A DNA stretch of 64,000 nucleotides from Gammaproteobacteria bacterium (GTDB taxonomy: Bacteria; Pseudomonadota; Gammaproteobacteria; SZUA-140). Each line of letters opens with the position of its first letter. Position 1 is the first letter of the stretch. The stretch is taken from positions 62,001 to 126,000 of the forward strand of contig JACREF010000009.1 of assembly GCA_016218365.1 (NCBI GenBank). The letters are read 5' to 3'. The notes under the pieces were generated by a model. The model was given only the letters and a program-made list of their open reading frames with translations, made no database searches and was not told the origin of the DNA. The position numbers and the translations under genes were made by a program. Below are positions 9,281 through 41,125 of the stretch, in pieces.

Positions 9281-10530
9281 TGGATCATTTTAGTTTCCGG
9301 GACGGCATGCTGTATGCCGAGCAGGTGGCGGTGGCCGAGCTGGCGGAGCGCTATGGCACACCGTTGTACGTCTATTCCCGGGCAACCATTGAGCGTCACT
9401 GGCACGCCTTTGACCAGGCCTTCGGGGCGCGGCCTCATCTGGTGTGTTATGCGGTCAAGGCCAATTCCAATATTGCAGTGCTGAATGTACTGGCACGGCT
9501 GGGTTCAGGGTTCGATATCGTGTCGGGTGGAGAGCTGGAGCGGGTATTGGTGGCAGGGGGTGACCCATCCAAGGTGGTCTTTTCCGGGGTGGGCAAGTCC
9601 GCTGCCGAGATCCGCCGTGCCCTGATGGTGGGTATTGCCTGCTTCAATGTTGAGTCCGAGTCCGAGCTGCAACGCATCAGTGAACTGGCGACCGCGCTGA
9701 ACAAGACTGCGGCCATCTCGCTGCGCGTCAATCCCGATGTCGATGCCCAGACCCACCCCTATATCTCGACCGGTTTGAAGGAGAACAAGTTTGGCATTGG
9801 CATTGATGGTGCGGCCGCGATTTATCGTCAGGCCAGCCGGATGCCGGGCCTGCGCGTGGTCGGGCTTGATTGTCACATTGGCTCACAATTGACGGCGACG
9901 ATGCCTTTTGTAGACGCCGCCGATCGTCTGCTGACCCTTGTCGACACCTTGATGGCCGACGGCATTGAACTGGAGCATATCGATATTGGTGGCGGGCTTG
10001 GCATCCGTTACCGCGACGAACAGCCTCCTGATCCGAAGGAATATCTTGGCGCACTGCTGGGCCGTTTCTCACAGTTCAAGGGACTGCTGATGGTCGAACC
10101 CGGACGTGCGATTGTTGGCAATGCCGGGATACTGGTTACACGGATTGAATATCTAAAGAGCACTGAGGCCAGGCAGTTTGCCATCGTTGATGGGGGTATG
10201 AACGATTTGCTGCGCCCGTCGCTGTATGGCGCATGGCAGGAGATCATCCCGATCCGGCCGCGAACCAACGGCATCAATGCGGTGTATGACATCGTCGGCC
10301 CGGTGTGTGAGACCGGAGATTTTCTCGGCAAGCAGCGCGAGCTGAATGTGCTGGCCGGCGATCTGCTGGCCGTGCGCTCGGCCGGCGCCTATGGCTTCGC
10401 GATGAGCTCCAACTACAATACCCGGCCCCGTGCTGCCGAGGTCATGGTCGACGGCGCCCAGTCCCATCTGGTGCGCCGGCGCGAGGTGTTGGCAGATCTG
10501 TGGTCGGCAGAGCAGATCCTGCCGGGTTAA
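9280..10530 (+). CDS. lysA: Diaminopimelate decarboxylase
   Basis: HLVCYAVKANSNIAVLNVLARLGSGFDIVSGGEL...DCHIGSQLT...VEPGRAIVGNAGIL...GPVCETGDFLGK. Confidence 0.97.
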   Translation: MDHFSFRDGMLYAEQVAVAELAERYGTPLYVYSRATIERHWHAFDQAFGARPHLVCYAVKANSNIAVLNVLARLGSGFDIVSGGELERVLVAGGDPSKVVFSGVGKSAAEIRRALMVGIACFNVESESELQRISELATALNKTAAISLRVNPDVDAQTHPYISTGLKENKFGIGIDGAAAIYRQASRMPGLRVVGLDCHIGSQLTATMPFVDAADRLLTLVDTLMADGIELEHIDIGGGLGIRYRDEQPPDPKEYLGALLGRFSQFKGLLMVEPGRAIVGNAGILVTRIEYLKSTEARQFAIVDGGMNDLLRPSLYGAWQEIIPIRPRTNGINAVYDIVGPVCETGDFLGKQRELNVLAGDLLAVRSAGAYGFAMSSNYNTRPRAAEVMVDGAQSHLVRRREVLADLWSAEQILPG

Positions 10531-10532
10531 GG

Positions 10533-11201
10533 ATGCAGCGCATCCCTGAGCCCGAGTTGATGTGCGATGAGGCCCAGGCCGCGGCCTATGCCAATGCGGA
10601 TTTCTCCCAGGCGCATGACCAGTTCGTCAGCCTGTTTGGTGAAATCTTTCCCGGTTTGCTTGTCAGTGATCAGGTAATCGACCTGGGTTGTGGTCCGGCA
10701 GATGTGACGGTGCGTTTCGCCAGGGCCTGGCCTGAATGCCGGGTCCTGGGGCTGGAGGGTGCCGAGGTAATGCTGGCTTTGGGGCGGACTAATGTTGCCA
10801 GCGCATCATTGGATACCAGGATACATTTAGATTATTGCCATCTGCCACAATCGATCTGGCCATATGGACACTTTGACGTTGTGATCAGCAACAGCCTGCT
10901 GCATCATCTGGCTGACCCCAACACCCTGTGGCGTACCGTGCGACAATGTGCACGGGTGGGCGCTACGGTGTTTGTCATGGATCTGCTGCGGCCAGCAGGC
11001 TTGCTGCAGGCCAGGCAGCTGGTGGATGACTATGCGCATGATGAGCCGGAGGTCTTGCGCCGCGATTTTTTCAATTCATTGTGCGCGGCCTACACGGCGG
11101 GCGAGGTCGAGCAGCAGCTCGATCAGAGCGGGCTGGCGGGCCTGGGCGTTCGTCAGGTGTCCGATCGTCACCTGCTGGTTTCAGGCAGGATAATCGGCTG
11201 A
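10533..11201 (+). CDS. Class I SAM-dependent methyltransferase
   Basis: [34 protein letters not shown]...[16 protein letters not shown]. Confidence 0.85.
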
Positions 11202-33585: not shown

Positions 33586-33662
<77 letters not shown>

Positions 33663-33858
33663 TTAAAAACAATAAGTTATGTTGATTTTTAGTTGCCGGC
33701 ATGTTTAATTATCGAGCATGGAAGCAATATGGAAGCCATTTGTAATCATTTAGGTTGCGCACGCATCGGGGAGATCGGTTCAGTTCATGGTAATATGAAA
33801 TAAGGCCGATATTGTCTGAGACGAGTATTGTTGCATTAGACAAAATTGCGCATATTAT

Positions 33859-34095
33859 ATGACCTTGTTAGATATATATTCTAAAGTTACACAGCCTTGG
33901 AATCTGACGATGCGCAACAAGATGGTTACTATCAGCGGTGCTGGCGTTTTAGAAGTCAACGCATCTAAGCTTCTGAGTTCCCAGGAAGGTAAGCGTCAGA
34001 TCGAGGCACTGAAAGACATCCAAATTGTTAGGAGTGCAGGAAGCGGGAATCTAGAGCGGCAGACACAGGTCCGCCCGAAACAAAAAACCGCGTAG
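33859..34095 (+). CDS. Small hypothetical protein (78 aa) at the start of the accessory island
   Basis: ORF MTLLDIYSKVTQPWNLTMRNKMVTISGAGVLEVNASKLLSSQEGKRQIEALKD...; 35 bp upstream of the next co-directional ORF. Confidence 0.5.
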   Translation: MTLLDIYSKVTQPWNLTMRNKMVTISGAGVLEVNASKLLSSQEGKRQIEALKDIQIVRSAGSGNLERQTQVRPKQKTA

Positions 34096-34130
34096 ATCGT
34101 TGGCTTGTTCGCGAATCAGCGGATTAGGTA

Positions 34131-34913
34131 ATGGATCAGGCCGGTTTAGTTCCATTCCTTATATTGCCGTTGATTGGCGGCTATGCATTCTCAATAACGT
34201 GGACCGCCTCACTTTATAACTCAGCCAGAGAAGATGGGCAGCGAATATATTTTCGCGCTGCATTCTATGGAGTTTTTCTGACCCTATGTGCTATCTGCAT
34301 CCACATAATACTTTTGAATTACTCGGCAGGGTACAGTAGGCTGCTAGCAACCGCCTCAGAGGCGATCGGCGCGGCAGGCGTAGTTCCAGAAATGTGGAGC
34401 ACTGTCGCAATAGTCGCAATATTGTTTATATCATTTATGCTGGGGCCGCTCGCCTCGCATGCGCTAAATTTACTGAATGTAATAATTCCTAGCTGGAACA
34501 AATACCAGCTACTACAGGCGATAAAGCATGACGAGCTAGAGGAGCTGATATATCACTCAGTAAAATACGAGAAGCCTCTGCTGGTCACATTAGATTCCGG
34601 GAAGGTCTATGTTGGTTGGGCTGTCGTGGCGCCAAATCCGCTAGCTGCTGTAAAGCATATAAAAATGCTACCTCTGCTGGGCGGCTACAGAAACAAAGAT
34701 ACGCAGCAAGTGGAGTTTACAACCAATTACCACGAGATAATAACAAGTATAGAACAGGAGAGTGATCTTGATCATTTAACGTTAGATGATTTTTTCGTTA
34801 TATTGCCGACAAAAAATATTATCCTTGTTCATGGGTTTGATATAACAGCGTATAACAAATTCTCGACGCGGGGTGATGAAGAGCCGACTGATGAAGCTGA
34901 CCTAAGCGGTTAA
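34131..34913 (+). CDS. DUF6338-like membrane protein
   Basis: Hydrophobic N-terminal half (three candidate TM segments) and C-terminal PLLVTLDSGKVYVGWAVVAPNPLAAVKHIKMLPLLGGYRNKDTQQVEFTTNYHEII; low GC. Confidence 0.72.
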   Translation: MDQAGLVPFLILPLIGGYAFSITWTASLYNSAREDGQRIYFRAAFYGVFLTLCAICIHIILLNYSAGYSRLLATASEAIGAAGVVPEMWSTVAIVAILFISFMLGPLASHALNLLNVIIPSWNKYQLLQAIKHDELEELIYHSVKYEKPLLVTLDSGKVYVGWAVVAPNPLAAVKHIKMLPLLGGYRNKDTQQVEFTTNYHEIITSIEQESDLDHLTLDDFFVILPTKNIILVHGFDITAYNKFSTRGDEEPTDEADLSG

Positions 34914-35071
34914 GGTTATAGATTCATGGTGGCGCTGGAAAGAAGATGCTCAGGAAGCTAAGGCCTCGTGGGTAAGCGGGGTAGTGAGGCAGAGAAGTAA
35001 GTATAATCACATAGAATGATTGAGCGCCAAATAATCCGTCCCTTTGAACCGCGAAAGACAAGCATTATATA

Positions 35072-38000
35072 GTGGCTTACCCGCCGCTTATGGATTTTAC
35101 AGGTGACAGGTTGACCAGAATCCAACGCAGTTTTCGAGAGCTTTCGGATGAGGTGCTCAATTCTGTCGAGCAGGCTTCCCAGCTGGTCCAGATGGGGTGG
35201 TCTGGAACATTCGGGTGGGATGAGCTGCTCAAGTCACAGCGTATTCTGATCGTTTCTGAGGCCGGGACTGGCAAGACCTATGAATGTCAGGCCGAGAAGG
35301 ACAGGCTATGGAGGGCCGGCGAGGCGGCTTTTTATGTTGAGTTAGGGGAGCTTTCTCGCAACAATCTGCGCGATCTCTTGCCGGCTGAAGAGGAAGAACG
35401 CCTCGACGCTTGGCTAACTTCGCAATCCGATGTTGCGACCATATTCCTCGACTCCATCGACGAATTGAAGTTGACGCTTGGGTCGTTCGATGTAGCCCTA
35501 AGTCGCCTCAGCAAGGCGATTAAGGGGCAGCTCGGTCGGGCCAGGATCGTGATCACAACGCGACCCATTCCGGTCGATTATCACCTGATCCAGAAGCACC
35601 TGCCGATTCCCGAGAAGGGCGAGCTGGTCGCCAGTGGCGAAGCCTTCGCTGACATCGCGATGAATATGCAGCGCGACGATAAGAAGGCTAAGAAAGCCTC
35701 CGATGTTATCCCAGCTGTGCGGCATGTAGCGCTGATGCCACTCTCAGATGACCAGGTCCGAGAAATGGCAGCGTTGCAGGGGGTGACCAATGCAGGCGCA
35801 CTGCTCGAAGATATCCGCAGGCGCAATGCGGAGGATTTTGCCCGGCGGCCACAAGACTTGATCGAGCTATGCGCCAATTGGCGCGACCATCGTCGCATCA
35901 GCACTCATCGCGACCAAGTTGCGTACAATATTGCGATCAAACTGAAGCCGCGCACGGATCTAAGGGAAAAGGCGCATCTCTCGGGGGACAAAGCGCTTGA
36001 AGGCGCCAGTCGCCTTGCAATCGCTGCACTACTGACTCGTAAGCTCACCTTTCGGCATAGCACCGAAGCGGACAGTGGCGGCGAGCCAGGAACGGCCTTG
36101 GACCCGGAAGAGATCCTATCCGACTGGTCGGTTGATGAGATTAAGACTCTGCTTGAAAGGGCGCTATTCGGCTTTGCTAGCTATGGCCGCGTGCGGTTCC
36201 ATCATCGATCTGTGATCGAATATCTTGCGGCCAAGCGGCTGGAGAGCTTGCTTGATCGGGGCATGTCGATGAAGGCGGTTAAGCGCATGCTATTCGCCGA
36301 AACTCCGCAGGGTATAAAGGTTGTGAAGCCATCGATGCGACCAGTCGCTGCTTGGCTTTCTTTCTCTCAGTCAAGTATCTTCAGTGAAGTACGCGATCGC
36401 GAGCCTGACGTCTTGCTCAATTATGCCGACCCTGAATCACTGACGTCACAACAGCGCATCGATGCCTTGCGCGCCTATGTCGAACGATACAGTCATGGTA
36501 GCTGGCGCGGTATGCATGTGCCACGCGTGCAAGTTCACCGTCTTGCCTCGAATGATTTAGCCCCTGAAGTCCTGCGCCTGTGGGAATCAGAGATTGAGAA
36601 TCCGGAAGTGCGGGAGCTGCTCTTGGAGCTCATCGCGGCAGTTCCTATGCGGGGCGGTGCTGACATCGCCTATCGGGTCGTCATGCGGCGTGACGCCGAG
36701 ATCAGCGAGCGTGTGGACGCGCTTGATGCGCTAATCAAACTCAATGATGTTCGTCTTGATGTGATATCCGCCTCCATGGAGCTTGATGTAGGCATATGGC
36801 CCGCCAGACTTCTTAGGGCTTCGATACTGAGGCTATTTCCGGCGCATATACCGATCGAGCGCTTGTGCCGCATTCTCGCGCGCGTAACCGAATCTCGGCA
36901 CAGCGCTGGTGACTTAAGCTGGCTTTGGCCTCGATTGATTGCCGAGGCTGATATGACATCTGTGTACCGGGATGCGTTGCGTGCTGGGCTGACCGATCTC
37001 GTGACAGAAGGTGTCGAATGGAGCAATAAATTGTATCGCAATGTCTCGCTGAGGCAACATCTCGTTACCCCACTAACCGCTGTCTGCCTTCGCCAGATGA
37101 TGGAAGACGACATATCGGCTGCTGTCATTAAATCAAGTGTCATTGCCCTCCGGCTTGCGCGGGATGAATATCGTCACGACGAGGCTGCTGTCGATTTGCG
37201 AAAGGCGCTTGCGCAGTCGCCGGCGGCAGTGAGGGAAATGGCATTCTGGGCTGATGATGCTTGCATTCATGGTTATCGCCTTCAGGAAGACCCGCGGCAT
37301 CGCCTCTTCGAAGTCAATCATAACGGCGCGATCAGCTTGAATGCCTCTCAGGACAAGAGCTGGGTCCTAGCGAATCTCTCCGATCTGAAACGACCGCTCG
37401 CCGAGCGTGCCATGATGCTGGAAGCAGCGATGCGCGAGATGTGGGATGGTCAAGGCGAGTGGTGCAACTATGCGCCGATGCTAAAGGACCATGTTGCCGA
37501 TTGTCCCACGCTCACGGCGCATATCGTCGACCATCTCAAGCCTGCACCCGTCAATCACGAGCTTGCCTGCATGGTAAAGAAGAATAAAAAGCGCATGGAG
37601 CAGGCTAAGCATCGCCAGACCAAGGATCACGAAAGCTGGGTTATGTTCTGGGAAGAGGTAGCGAATAATCCGCAAACTGTTTTTAGTATCGATCGAGCAG
37701 AGAATACTGCCTGGAACTTGTGGAGAGCGATGAGCCGCTCTGGCCAGGAAAGCCGTTCTTCTGGGTGGAACCGTCGTTTCATCGAGCAGTATTTCAGCAA
37801 GGATGTTGCCGATAGACTGCGCGCGTCAATGATGAGTATCTGGCGCGGTGATCGACCCACGCTGCGCAGTGAGCGTCCTGAGAACGAAAAGGGAACCTTC
37901 CTTGTCCGCGGGCAGCTAGGTCTCGCTGCAATTGCAGCGGAAGCTGAAGACCCGAGCTGGGCTCGTAATCTGTCAGTCAAGGAAGCGGAGTTGGCAGCCC

Positions 38001-39466
38001 GTTATGTGCCGATCGAACTAAATGGATTTCCGTCCTGGTTTGAGAGTCTTGCTGTGGCGCATCCTACCGCCGTCGAAGCCGTGCTTGGCCCGGAGCTCAC
38101 AAGCGAGATTGACGAGATGGCGACTGTTGGTTCTCACTCCTTTTTTTTGCAGAATCTTAGCCATGCGGCCTCGCCCATCGCTAGCTTGTTTATTCAGCGG
38201 CTTCGCGTTTGGTTCGATGTGAATGCACAACGCATTCGGGAAGGCGAGGAAAGTTCAATGGCGGCAGAGCGCCTCCGGCGGGTGGTAGATGTTCTATTAT
38301 GGTGTGGTGATCATCAGACTCGTGGGCATATTTGCATTATTGCGACGAAGCATCTCACTGGCGGATTTGATCCTGTCTTCGCATATGTATGGTTTCCAAT
38401 CCTGATGCGGCTGGACCCTTCTACAGGTACTGAGTGGCTCGAAAAAGGCTTGAACGGAGTAGAGCCCGGCCCTTACGGCCAGGGCATAGATTGGATGAGT
38501 AGTCTATTTGGCGATTATCATAATGAAACGGGGGTTGATCTCCATACGCCCGAATTTACCCCGGACTTACTGCTACGGCTCGTACGACTCGCCTTTCGCC
38601 ATGTGCGACCTTCGGATGACATTGTCCATGACGACGTCTATACCCCGGGTGCCCGCGATCATGCCCAGAGGGGACGTGATGCGCTGTTGAGCGCGCTTCT
38701 AGACGCCAAGGGGCCCGAGGGCTGGGTTGTGAAGCTCAAAATGGCCAACGATCCACTATTTGCGCATTTTCGCGACCGGGCCTTGTTGATTGCGCGCGAG
38801 AAGGCCGCCGAGGAATCTGATAGAGCAGTGCTATCCGAGCTTGATGTAGTTTCAATCGACCGCTACCGGGAAGCGCCACCCACCACCCGCGATGAGATGT
38901 TCGCGCTAATGGTAGATCGTCTCGACGACCTTTATGATCTGTTGCTTCAGGATGATTCGCCGCGCGCTGCATGGGCTATCATCTCCGATGAGAAAGTGAT
39001 GCGCCGTGAAATCGCACGTCAGCTGCGCTATGCAGCCAACCACGCCTACACTGTCGATCAAGAGGGATCGACGGCTGACGAAAAGGAAACCGACATCAGA
39101 TTGCGCGCCACTGGGTCCGACCAGCAGGCCGTAATAGAGCTGAAGCTAGGTGATGAACGATCGGGCCGGGAATTGCGCGACACAATCAATGAGCAGCTTG
39201 TGACCAAATACATGGCACCGGATACTCGCCGCTCCGGGTGCTTACTGGTTACCGTCGCCAAGGATCGCACATGGCAGCACCCAGACTCCAGCGAGCTCCT
39301 TGATGTTGCCGGGCTAGAAGCAATGCTTCAGGAGGAGGCGGCGAAAATTGCTATCGATAGAGTATTCACCGTGCTGCTCACCACACGAGTGCTCGATCTG
39401 CGGCCACGTCTTCAGACCGAGAGCAAGTCGACGGTGGTACGGGCGCGGAAGAAGGGCCTGATTTAG
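35072..39466 (+). CDS. NACHT/STAND-type NTPase with long helical middle and C-terminal PD-(D/E)XK-like nuclease signature; candidate defence protein
   Basis: Walker A ILIVSEAGTGKTYEC, Walker B ATIFLDSIDELK, RIVITTRP, NACHT-type VRFHHRSVIEYLAAKRLESLL; C-terminus EKETDIRLRATGSDQQAVIELKLGD (D...ExK). GTG start, alternative ATG at 35090. Confidence 0.8.
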   Translation: MAYPPLMDFTGDRLTRIQRSFRELSDEVLNSVEQASQLVQMGWSGTFGWDELLKSQRILIVSEAGTGKTYECQAEKDRLWRAGEAAFYVELGELSRNNLRDLLPAEEEERLDAWLTSQSDVATIFLDSIDELKLTLGSFDVALSRLSKAIKGQLGRARIVITTRPIPVDYHLIQKHLPIPEKGELVASGEAFADIAMNMQRDDKKAKKASDVIPAVRHVALMPLSDDQVREMAALQGVTNAGALLEDIRRRNAEDFARRPQDLIELCANWRDHRRISTHRDQVAYNIAIKLKPRTDLREKAHLSGDKALEGASRLAIAALLTRKLTFRHSTEADSGGEPGTALDPEEILSDWSVDEIKTLLERALFGFASYGRVRFHHRSVIEYLAAKRLESLLDRGMSMKAVKRMLFAETPQGIKVVKPSMRPVAAWLSFSQSSIFSEVRDREPDVLLNYADPESLTSQQRIDALRAYVERYSHGSWRGMHVPRVQVHRLASNDLAPEVLRLWESEIENPEVRELLLELIAAVPMRGGADIAYRVVMRRDAEISERVDALDALIKLNDVRLDVISASMELDVGIWPARLLRASILRLFPAHIPIERLCRILARVTESRHSAGDLSWLWPRLIAEADMTSVYRDALRAGLTDLVTEGVEWSNKLYRNVSLRQHLVTPLTAVCLRQMMEDDISAAVIKSSVIALRLARDEYRHDEAAVDLRKALAQSPAAVREMAFWADDACIHGYRLQEDPRHRLFEVNHNGAISLNASQDKSWVLANLSDLKRPLAERAMMLEAAMREMWDGQGEWCNYAPMLKDHVADCPTLTAHIVDHLKPAPVNHELACMVKKNKKRMEQAKHRQTKDHESWVMFWEEVANNPQTVFSIDRAENTAWNLWRAMSRSGQESRSSGWNRRFIEQYFSKDVADRLRASMMSIWRGDRPTLRSERPENEKGTFLVRGQLGLAAIAAEAEDPSWARNLSVKEAELAARYVPIELNGFPSWFESLAVAHPTAVEAVLGPELTSEIDEMATVGSHSFFLQNLSHAASPIASLFIQRLRVWFDVNAQRIREGEESSMAAERLRRVVDVLLWCGDHQTRGHICIIATKHLTGGFDPVFAYVWFPILMRLDPSTGTEWLEKGLNGVEPGPYGQGIDWMSSLFGDYHNETGVDLHTPEFTPDLLLRLVRLAFRHVRPSDDIVHDDVYTPGARDHAQRGRDALLSALLDAKGPEGWVVKLKMANDPLFAHFRDRALLIAREKAAEESDRAVLSELDVVSIDRYREAPPTTRDEMFALMVDRLDDLYDLLLQDDSPRAAWAIISDEKVMRREIARQLRYAANHAYTVDQEGSTADEKETDIRLRATGSDQQAVIELKLGDERSGRELRDTINEQLVTKYMAPDTRRSGCLLVTVAKDRTWQHPDSSELLDVAGLEAMLQEEAAKIAIDRVFTVLLTTRVLDLRPRLQTESKSTVVRARKKGLI

Positions 39467-39551
39467 TAATTGGATCAGCTCGATTAGTATATGCCACCAT
39501 GTGTATTAGAGAGATGGCGTACAGTTATTGACAGAACTCCAAGTTAGAAGA

Positions 39552-40006: not shown

Positions 40007-41125
40007 ATGGCTGAGTCCCTGAAGAAACATTTTGGCATCAAGATCCCGCAGACCATCGCCTCGATGGTTGGCGAGGTGTACCCGTTTTTTGATGGCGAGC
40101 GTTTCGTTGCCGAGGTGAAGAAGGGCTATCAGCCGCTGGAGCTGATGGCGCGCGGTTGGCAGATTGCTCATCACTTGCGCCGCCATCTGCCGGATGATTA
40201 TTCGCAGGCGATTGAGATCCTGATCGCCTCGCTTGGTCCGCGGCTGGAGCGGACCGAAGGTCTGGGCTTGGCGCCGTTTCTGTATTTGCCGCACGTGTTG
40301 CTGGTCGCGGAATATGGGCTCGGGCATTTCGAGGCGTCGATGCGCGCCCAGTATCAGCTGACACAGCGTTTTTCGGCCGAGTTCAGCATCCGTCGTTATC
40401 TTGAGCATCACCCGGTGGCGACGCTGCACGTGCTCAGGCAGTGGGCGACCGATCCCAGCCCGCATGTAAGGCGGCTGGTGTCCGAAGGGACGCGACCACG
40501 GCTGCCATGGGCATCGCGGCTGGCGATGTTTCAGCGTGATCCGCAGCCGGTGCTGGCCTTGCTGGAGCTGCTGAAGGATGACCCGGAGTTGTATGTGCGC
40601 CGTTCGGTGGCAAACAATCTCAATGACATCGGCAAGGATCATCGAGAACTGTTGGTGGCGACAGCGCGACGTTGGATGAAAGATGCCTCTGCCGAGCGGC
40701 AATGGATCATCCGTCATGCACTGCGCTCGGCCGTGAAGCAGGGAGACCGCGGGGCGCTGGCAGTGCTGGGTTTCGGCGCGGCGGCTGGGGCGAGGCTGCG
40801 GGATGTTGCCATTGCGCCGCAGCAGGTGCGCCGCGGTGGTTCGGTACAGATCGGGTTTGAGGTCTATAATGCCAGCGACCAGATCATGCCATTGCTGGTC
40901 GATTTCCGTATCCATTTCGTCAAGGCCCGTGGCGCGAGCCGGCCCAAGGTGTTCAAGTTGAAATCGATCAACCTGGGGCCCGGACAGGCGGTGCGCCTGG
41001 GCAAGCGCGTTTCGCTGGCCGAGATGACAACCCGCCGCCATTATCCAGGTGTCCATGCGGTCGACGTTCTGCTGAATGGCAAACCACACAAGCTGGGCAG
41101 TTTCACCGTGCTGCAGACAAAATGA
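40007..41125 (+). CDS. AlkC-like HEAT-repeat DNA alkylation repair protein with C-terminal Ig-like domain
   Basis: MAESLKKHFGIKIPQTIASMVGEVYP...FSAEFSIRRYLEHHPVATLHVLRQWATDPSPHVRRLVSEGTRPRLPWASRL...; beta-rich C-terminus. Confidence 0.88.
   Translation: MAESLKKHFGIKIPQTIASMVGEVYPFFDGERFVAEVKKGYQPLELMARGWQIAHHLRRHLPDDYSQAIEILIASLGPRLERTEGLGLAPFLYLPHVLLVAEYGLGHFEASMRAQYQLTQRFSAEFSIRRYLEHHPVATLHVLRQWATDPSPHVRRLVSEGTRPRLPWASRLAMFQRDPQPVLALLELLKDDPELYVRRSVANNLNDIGKDHRELLVATARRWMKDASAERQWIIRHALRSAVKQGDRGALAVLGFGAAAGARLRDVAIAPQQVRRGGSVQIGFEVYNASDQIMPLLVDFRIHFVKARGASRPKVFKLKSINLGPGQAVRLGKRVSLAEMTTRRHYPGVHAVDVLLNGKPHKLGSFTVLQTK

Follow-up and report, generated by a model that had tools for sequence, protein, structure and literature searches.

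The window, a 64,000-nucleotide stretch of contig JACREF010000009.1 (positions 62,001 to 126,000 of the forward strand) in the Gammaproteobacteria bacterium assembly GCA_016218365.1, contains a single intact open reading frame (ORF) of 1464 codons at 35072–39466 on the plus strand, starting with GTG. Judged by sequence, its product is a member of HyoA, an already named antiphage family. The protein combines an N-terminal NACHT nucleoside triphosphatase (NTPase), assigned to the STAND class (signal transduction ATPases with numerous domains), with a long helical middle region and a C-terminal PD-(D/E)XK-like module, the putative nuclease. The gene is present in a single copy in its own 2.26-Mb genome. 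The gene and the regions of its product are located as follows, in window positions and in residues of the 1464-amino-acid (aa) protein:

35072..39466, plus strand: HyoA-type NACHT protein, 1464 aa (NCBIfam NF058534, 1518.1 bits, cut-off 1200)
35216..36256, plus strand: NACHT NTPase and winged-helix region, residues ~49–395 (Foldseek matches, invariant motifs)
35255..35278, plus strand: Walker A motif SEAGTGKT, residues 62–69 (G67, K68 and T69 invariant)
35444..35464, plus strand: Walker B motif FLDSIDE, residues 125–131 (D127, D130 and E131 invariant)
35543..35566, plus strand: RIVITTRP strand, residues 158–165, in a sensor-1-like position (R164 invariant; functional label by analogy)
36200..36232, plus strand: HHRSVIEYLAA signature, residues 377–387 (H378 and A387 invariant, R379 and L385 nearly so)
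36257..38863, plus strand: long, mostly helical region, residues ~396–1264, presumed sensor (model helical to residue 607)
38864..39397, plus strand: predicted C-terminal effector module, PD-(D/E)XK-like, residues ~1265–1442 (invariant residues, predicted fold order, Kpn2I match)

The match to NF058534, an equivalog model entitled "NACHT domain-containing antiphage protein HyoA", exceeds the curated cut-off and spans the complete profile (1–1430 of 1430; residues 17–1446). The model extends through the C-terminal nuclease region, so that the nuclease is a family trait and nothing peculiar to the window locus. The initial annotation had proposed an undescribed defence protein, which is contradicted by an equivalog-level match with the nuclease included. 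Scans of the protein against Pfam and PHROGs gave nothing usable, and a PADLOC 2023 scan, Avs models included, returned no family up to E = 1; this silence explains how a reading of motifs alone arrived at "undescribed". Weak Pfam matches to NACHT or nSTAND were obtained for some homologues only. The protein falls outside the EruA family, as it scores 103.8 bits against NF058535, whose cut-off is 1000. An open-literature search for a paper describing HyoA or EruA found none; the DefensePredictor study (PMC13092281) mentions NACHT systems, and the names HyoA and EruA are absent from it.

Conservation was assessed in a 23-row alignment of full-length homologues from whole genomes, plasmids and phage records, all of which also match NF058534; the others are 20–53% identical to the window protein. 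The motifs quoted at the outset (SEAGTGKT, FLDSIDE, RIVITTRP, HHRSVIEYLAA, TDIRL, VIELKLGD and EQLVTKY) all lie at the places implied for them, and their conservation exceeds chance. Invariant positions in the N-terminal part include R19, F21, W49, G67, K68, T69, D127, D130, E131, R164 and H378, and the P-loop, the acidic Walker B motif and the winged helix are features of the NACHT clan. An AlphaFold2 model of residues 1–620, built with six sequences, has a mean predicted local distance difference test (pLDDT) score of 74. Foldseek comparison of this model with the PDB retrieved NLRC4 (3.5e-9), NOD2 (2.1e-8), NLRP3 (3.3e-6) and the phage-sensing Avs4 (8dgf; 1.3e-6), in support of the NACHT/STAND identity first read from the motifs. 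Template modelling scores are low (best 0.42, for NOD2), as is to be expected when several domains are modelled together and their relative placement is uncertain. Because the NACHT core begins near residue 49, with fewer than 50 residues in front of it, the protein has no space for an effector domain at the N-terminus.

Between the winged-helix region, which ends at about residue 395, and the nuclease module, which begins at about 1265–1300, lie some 850 residues, so that the estimate of about 900 helical residues was roughly right. Weak HEAT_2 matches occur in this middle region in two of the 23 members. By analogy with the STAND architecture, residues ~396–1264 are presumed to act as the sensor.

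The C-terminal module carries the invariant positions E1307, E1331, D1341, E1356, K1358, Q1375 and Y1380. D1341 belongs to TDIRL, E1356-x-K1358 to VIELKLGD, and Q1375 and Y1380 to EQLVTKY. The order and spacing of a PD-(D/E)XK site are kept, with a glutamate in the preceding segment, the aspartate, E-x-K, and then glutamine and tyrosine on the next helix; on sequence grounds, conservation of this set of residues is far beyond chance. The last 325 residues (1140–1464) were also modelled with AlphaFold2, here with five sequences, at a mean pLDDT of 66 and about 65–89 across most of the nuclease core. The model predicts a helix, a strand by E1331, a strand by D1341, a strand bearing E1356-x-K1358, a helix bearing Q1375 and Y1380, and a final strand. 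This order fits the alpha-beta-beta-beta-alpha-beta core, with moderate model confidence and weak PDB matches. The top Foldseek match is the restriction enzyme Kpn2I (E = 3.8e-3, probability 0.84; a weak match); Mus81-Eme1, Shedu, the Pyrococcus repair nuclease 2vld and PaqCI follow lower down, intermixed with unrelated folds. We take all five of these to be PD-(D/E)XK proteins. The structural case for a nuclease is consistent and weak alone, and it is the sequence conservation that carries the claim. Taken together, the conserved catalytic set and the core secondary-structure order support the PD-(D/E)XK-like C-terminus of the initial annotation, and the domain boundaries bear out its placement of the nuclease at the C-terminal end rather than the N-terminal one.

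Three homologues (L070, L010 and L009) keep the family sequence as far as the equivalent of residue ~1265 in the window protein, beyond which the nuclease is absent. The tail of L070, on a viral contig, has an "IIGNN"-type stretch followed by a hydrophobic, transmembrane helix (KIVIGVIIGVIVLVVGW). That of L010, in genome G054, is NDPVMVQAIGNGNTIHNN, with a glycine/asparagine motif; the next small ORF (L133:9221-9556) starts with the similar NAPVTTQVVGDGATIINQ, about half of the positions being identical by eye. Two further relatives of this small ORF (L150 and L151, frames of 214 and 342 aa) are found in the same genome. The motif common to L010 and the next ORF is possibly a homotypic effector-recruitment motif, and the arrangement resembles by analogy the shared effector-associated domains described in PMC7159879. 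L009, in genome G012, has a short tail, LEPNIYGMGINLRAALRYLKG. Its locus (L132:3364-10538) adjoins tRNA-Pro and includes a phage integrase (8136–9305) and an HD-domain protein (9546–10538); together with the nuclease-less HyoA homologue it is probably a small integrative element. L144 was considered as a fourth effector swap and set aside, because its frame stops inside the nuclease domain and no frame continues the nuclease, so that it looks truncated. In two further loci (L028 and L052) the HyoA C-terminal region lies in separate shorter frames of 458 and 471 aa, which suggests split or decayed genes.

The nuclease form predominates in the genome samples. A possible reading of the tails, which we put forward tentatively, is that HyoA-type proteins are NLR-like receptors (NLR, nucleotide-binding domain and leucine-rich repeat) of reversed polarity, with an NTPase, a middle sensor and an exchangeable C-terminal effector slot. 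The slot would usually be occupied by the PD-(D/E)XK domain, and in L070, L010 and L009 by the tails described above. Truncation is the alternative to tail exchange, above all for L009, and each tail is a single example. If tail exchange is real, one could test directly whether an activated NACHT module is able to drive effectors attached at either end.

HyoA is patchily distributed. Matches above the cut-off occur in three of 98 near relatives, eight of 399 genomes of the phylum and five of 387 of the class, the own genome being counted. Matches were also obtained in 66 plasmid records, of which 34 are typed as conjugative, and homologues lie in viral contigs. The closest plasmid relative, from Alphaproteobacteria, is 54% identical to the window protein, against 25% for a copy in a genome of the same bacterial family, and within the HyoA family identity falls to about 20%. 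Neighbours of the homologues include TIR, HEPN, CHAT and DUF6615 proteins, transposases and transfer genes. No recurring partner gene was found among the homologue loci read, so the HyoA system most likely consists of a single gene. Two HyoA genes used as queries against E. coli genomes gave no DNA-level match, and scans of viral contigs with four distant homologues returned nothing. The phage-defence role suggested for the protein gains support from the NCBIfam family name and the mobile contexts, and its homologues lie on plasmids, in viral contigs and at variable sites rather than solely in vertically inherited, non-defence surroundings.

The window gene itself lies behind rpoD and a tRNA-Met, in a low-GC insertion with the following features:

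33586..33662, plus strand: tRNA-Met (CAT) bordering the insertion (ARAGORN, Rfam RF00005)
33663..39540, no strand assigned: low-GC insertion with the 260-aa ORF and HyoA, ends approximate (GC 0.46–0.56, against 0.57–0.68 outside)
34131..34913, plus strand: 260-aa hypothetical protein, phrog_3630-like (121 bits to phrog_3630)

At third codon positions, the GC content (GC3) reaches 0.60 in HyoA and 0.46 in the 260-aa ORF; the flanking genes that were measured have 0.72–0.85. A search for a second copy of the tRNA 3' end that would mark the far edge of the insertion found no direct repeat. The 260-aa ORF has distant relatives on many Salmonella plasmids, and phrog_3630 is a family of unknown function. 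It was considered as a partner of HyoA and rejected, since no relative stands out beside HyoA among the annotated loci inspected and its known relatives are phage- and plasmid-borne proteins of unknown function. A small frame at 33910–34095 (MRNKMVTISGAGVLEVNASKLL...), also in the low-GC insertion, is perhaps a gene remnant. Downstream of the insertion, 40007–41125 encodes a HEAT-repeat/DNA-alkylation-repair-like protein that is present in only five of 20 genomes of the bacterial family.

The site behind rpoD, usually with tRNA-Met, differs in gene content among genomes of the same family, some of which carry restriction-modification parts there. It holds HsdM_N and PIN proteins in G005 (L117), a type I specificity domain in G009 (L118), a Fic protein in G002 (L121), an SNase protein in G013 (L124) and a type I methylase in G012 (L128). 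In G001 (L126), a HyoA gene whose product is about 25% identical to the window HyoA stands directly behind rpoD. The presence of two diverged HyoA genes at one site in one bacterial family suggests a recurrent insertion site. The isolated position among housekeeping genes that had been remarked on is accurate as to the neighbours (dnaG, rpoD, glgP and gspD), and it is explained by insertion at a variable site next to a tRNA gene.

Based on these results, we consider it probable that the window gene is a one-gene antiphage system of the HyoA family whose NLR-like product has a NACHT switch, a helical sensor and a C-terminal DNA-cutting nuclease, and that it was acquired horizontally into the variable site adjacent to tRNA-Met. 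The N-terminal NACHT (STAND) NTPase would act as a nucleotide-controlled switch, and the helical middle would sense either a product of the phage or a change that the phage causes in its host. Once activated, several protomers would probably assemble, and the C-terminal PD-(D/E)XK domains would thereby be brought together or unlocked. The nucleases would then cut DNA of the phage, the host or both, and the infection would be stopped, probably with the loss of the cell. The architecture, the invariant NTPase and nuclease residues, the NACHT fold, the family membership and the mobility are direct results of the computation; the trigger, the oligomerisation, the substrate and the suicidal outcome are what we infer. 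Several points weigh against this proposal. The three nuclease-less homologues indicate that the nuclease is dispensable in some members, and the division into sensor and effector is drawn from architecture. The C-terminal model is modest, with no Foldseek match at E < 0.001, and sequence-profile searches of the PDB yielded no relevant match and tie the C-terminal domain to no solved nuclease.

In a different assignment of roles, the C-terminal PD-(D/E)XK-like domain would bind nucleic acid as a sensor or regulator, with the effector action elsewhere, for example in NTPase-driven assembly. Such an arrangement would agree with the usual order in bNACHT proteins, in which the effector is N-terminal, the NACHT module central and the sensor C-terminal (PMC12169576, 2025), and with the absence of the domain from L070, L010 and L009. 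We regard it as unlikely, as the invariance of all PD-(D/E)XK catalytic positions in so divergent an alignment exceeds what binding alone would need, the short segment before the NACHT core leaves no other effector domain, and in L070 a transmembrane helix replaces the nuclease domain, as expected of an effector.

It is likewise improbable that the NLR-like protein has plasmids or other mobile elements, and not chiefly phage, as its target, or that it serves such an element as an addiction or exclusion gene. Homologues are often plasmid-borne, in some cases on conjugative plasmids, and one sits between transfer genes; however, antiphage genes are common on plasmids and prophages, so that location alone is indecisive, the NCBIfam family is named antiphage, and no conserved antitoxin-like partner gene accompanies HyoA. 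That the protein is a STAND regulator of some host process, inherited vertically, as the housekeeping neighbours could suggest, is highly improbable in view of the patchy presence, the atypical GC3, the mobile contexts and the differing gene content at the same site in relatives.

With an antiphage NLR-like protein as the preferred reading, comparison with known systems places the window protein in HyoA (NF058534), with which it shares a full-length match and the architecture, C-terminal domain included; no distinguishing feature was found. EruA (NF058535), a related NACHT antiphage family, is alignable over residues ~204–933, and one of the homologues, the EruA-like L030, also has a match to the C-terminal nuclease profile. 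Among bNACHT proteins, bNACHT25 and bNACHT32 belong to clade 6, which combines a PD-(D/E)XK DNase with NACHT; the N-terminal DNase of bNACHT25 is needed for protection, and nuclease-dead bNACHT25 and bNACHT32 lose it (PMC12169576). These proteins and the window protein carry a NACHT NTPase and a PD-(D/E)XK nuclease, the latter predicted in the window protein, on one polypeptide. Compared by architecture, the nuclease is N-terminal in bNACHT25 and bNACHT32 and C-terminal in the window protein. Avs1–Avs4 (AVAST) have in common with it a STAND NTPase, a long helical region and a nuclease effector, and the N-terminal model matches Avs4 (8dgf). In Avs proteins the effector is N-terminal to the STAND NTPase; by contrast, the window protein has its predicted effector at the opposite end, and it lacks a PADLOC match. 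The predicted NACHT and winged-helix fold is also common to the animal NLRs NLRC4, NOD2 and NLRP3, whose partner domains differ and, to our knowledge, include no nuclease. The window gene thus offers a clean, single-gene and naturally mobile NLR-like example, with an effector placed opposite to the textbook STAND order. As the family is already named antiphage, the gene is of value for its architecture and the apparent tail swap, not as a newly discovered system.

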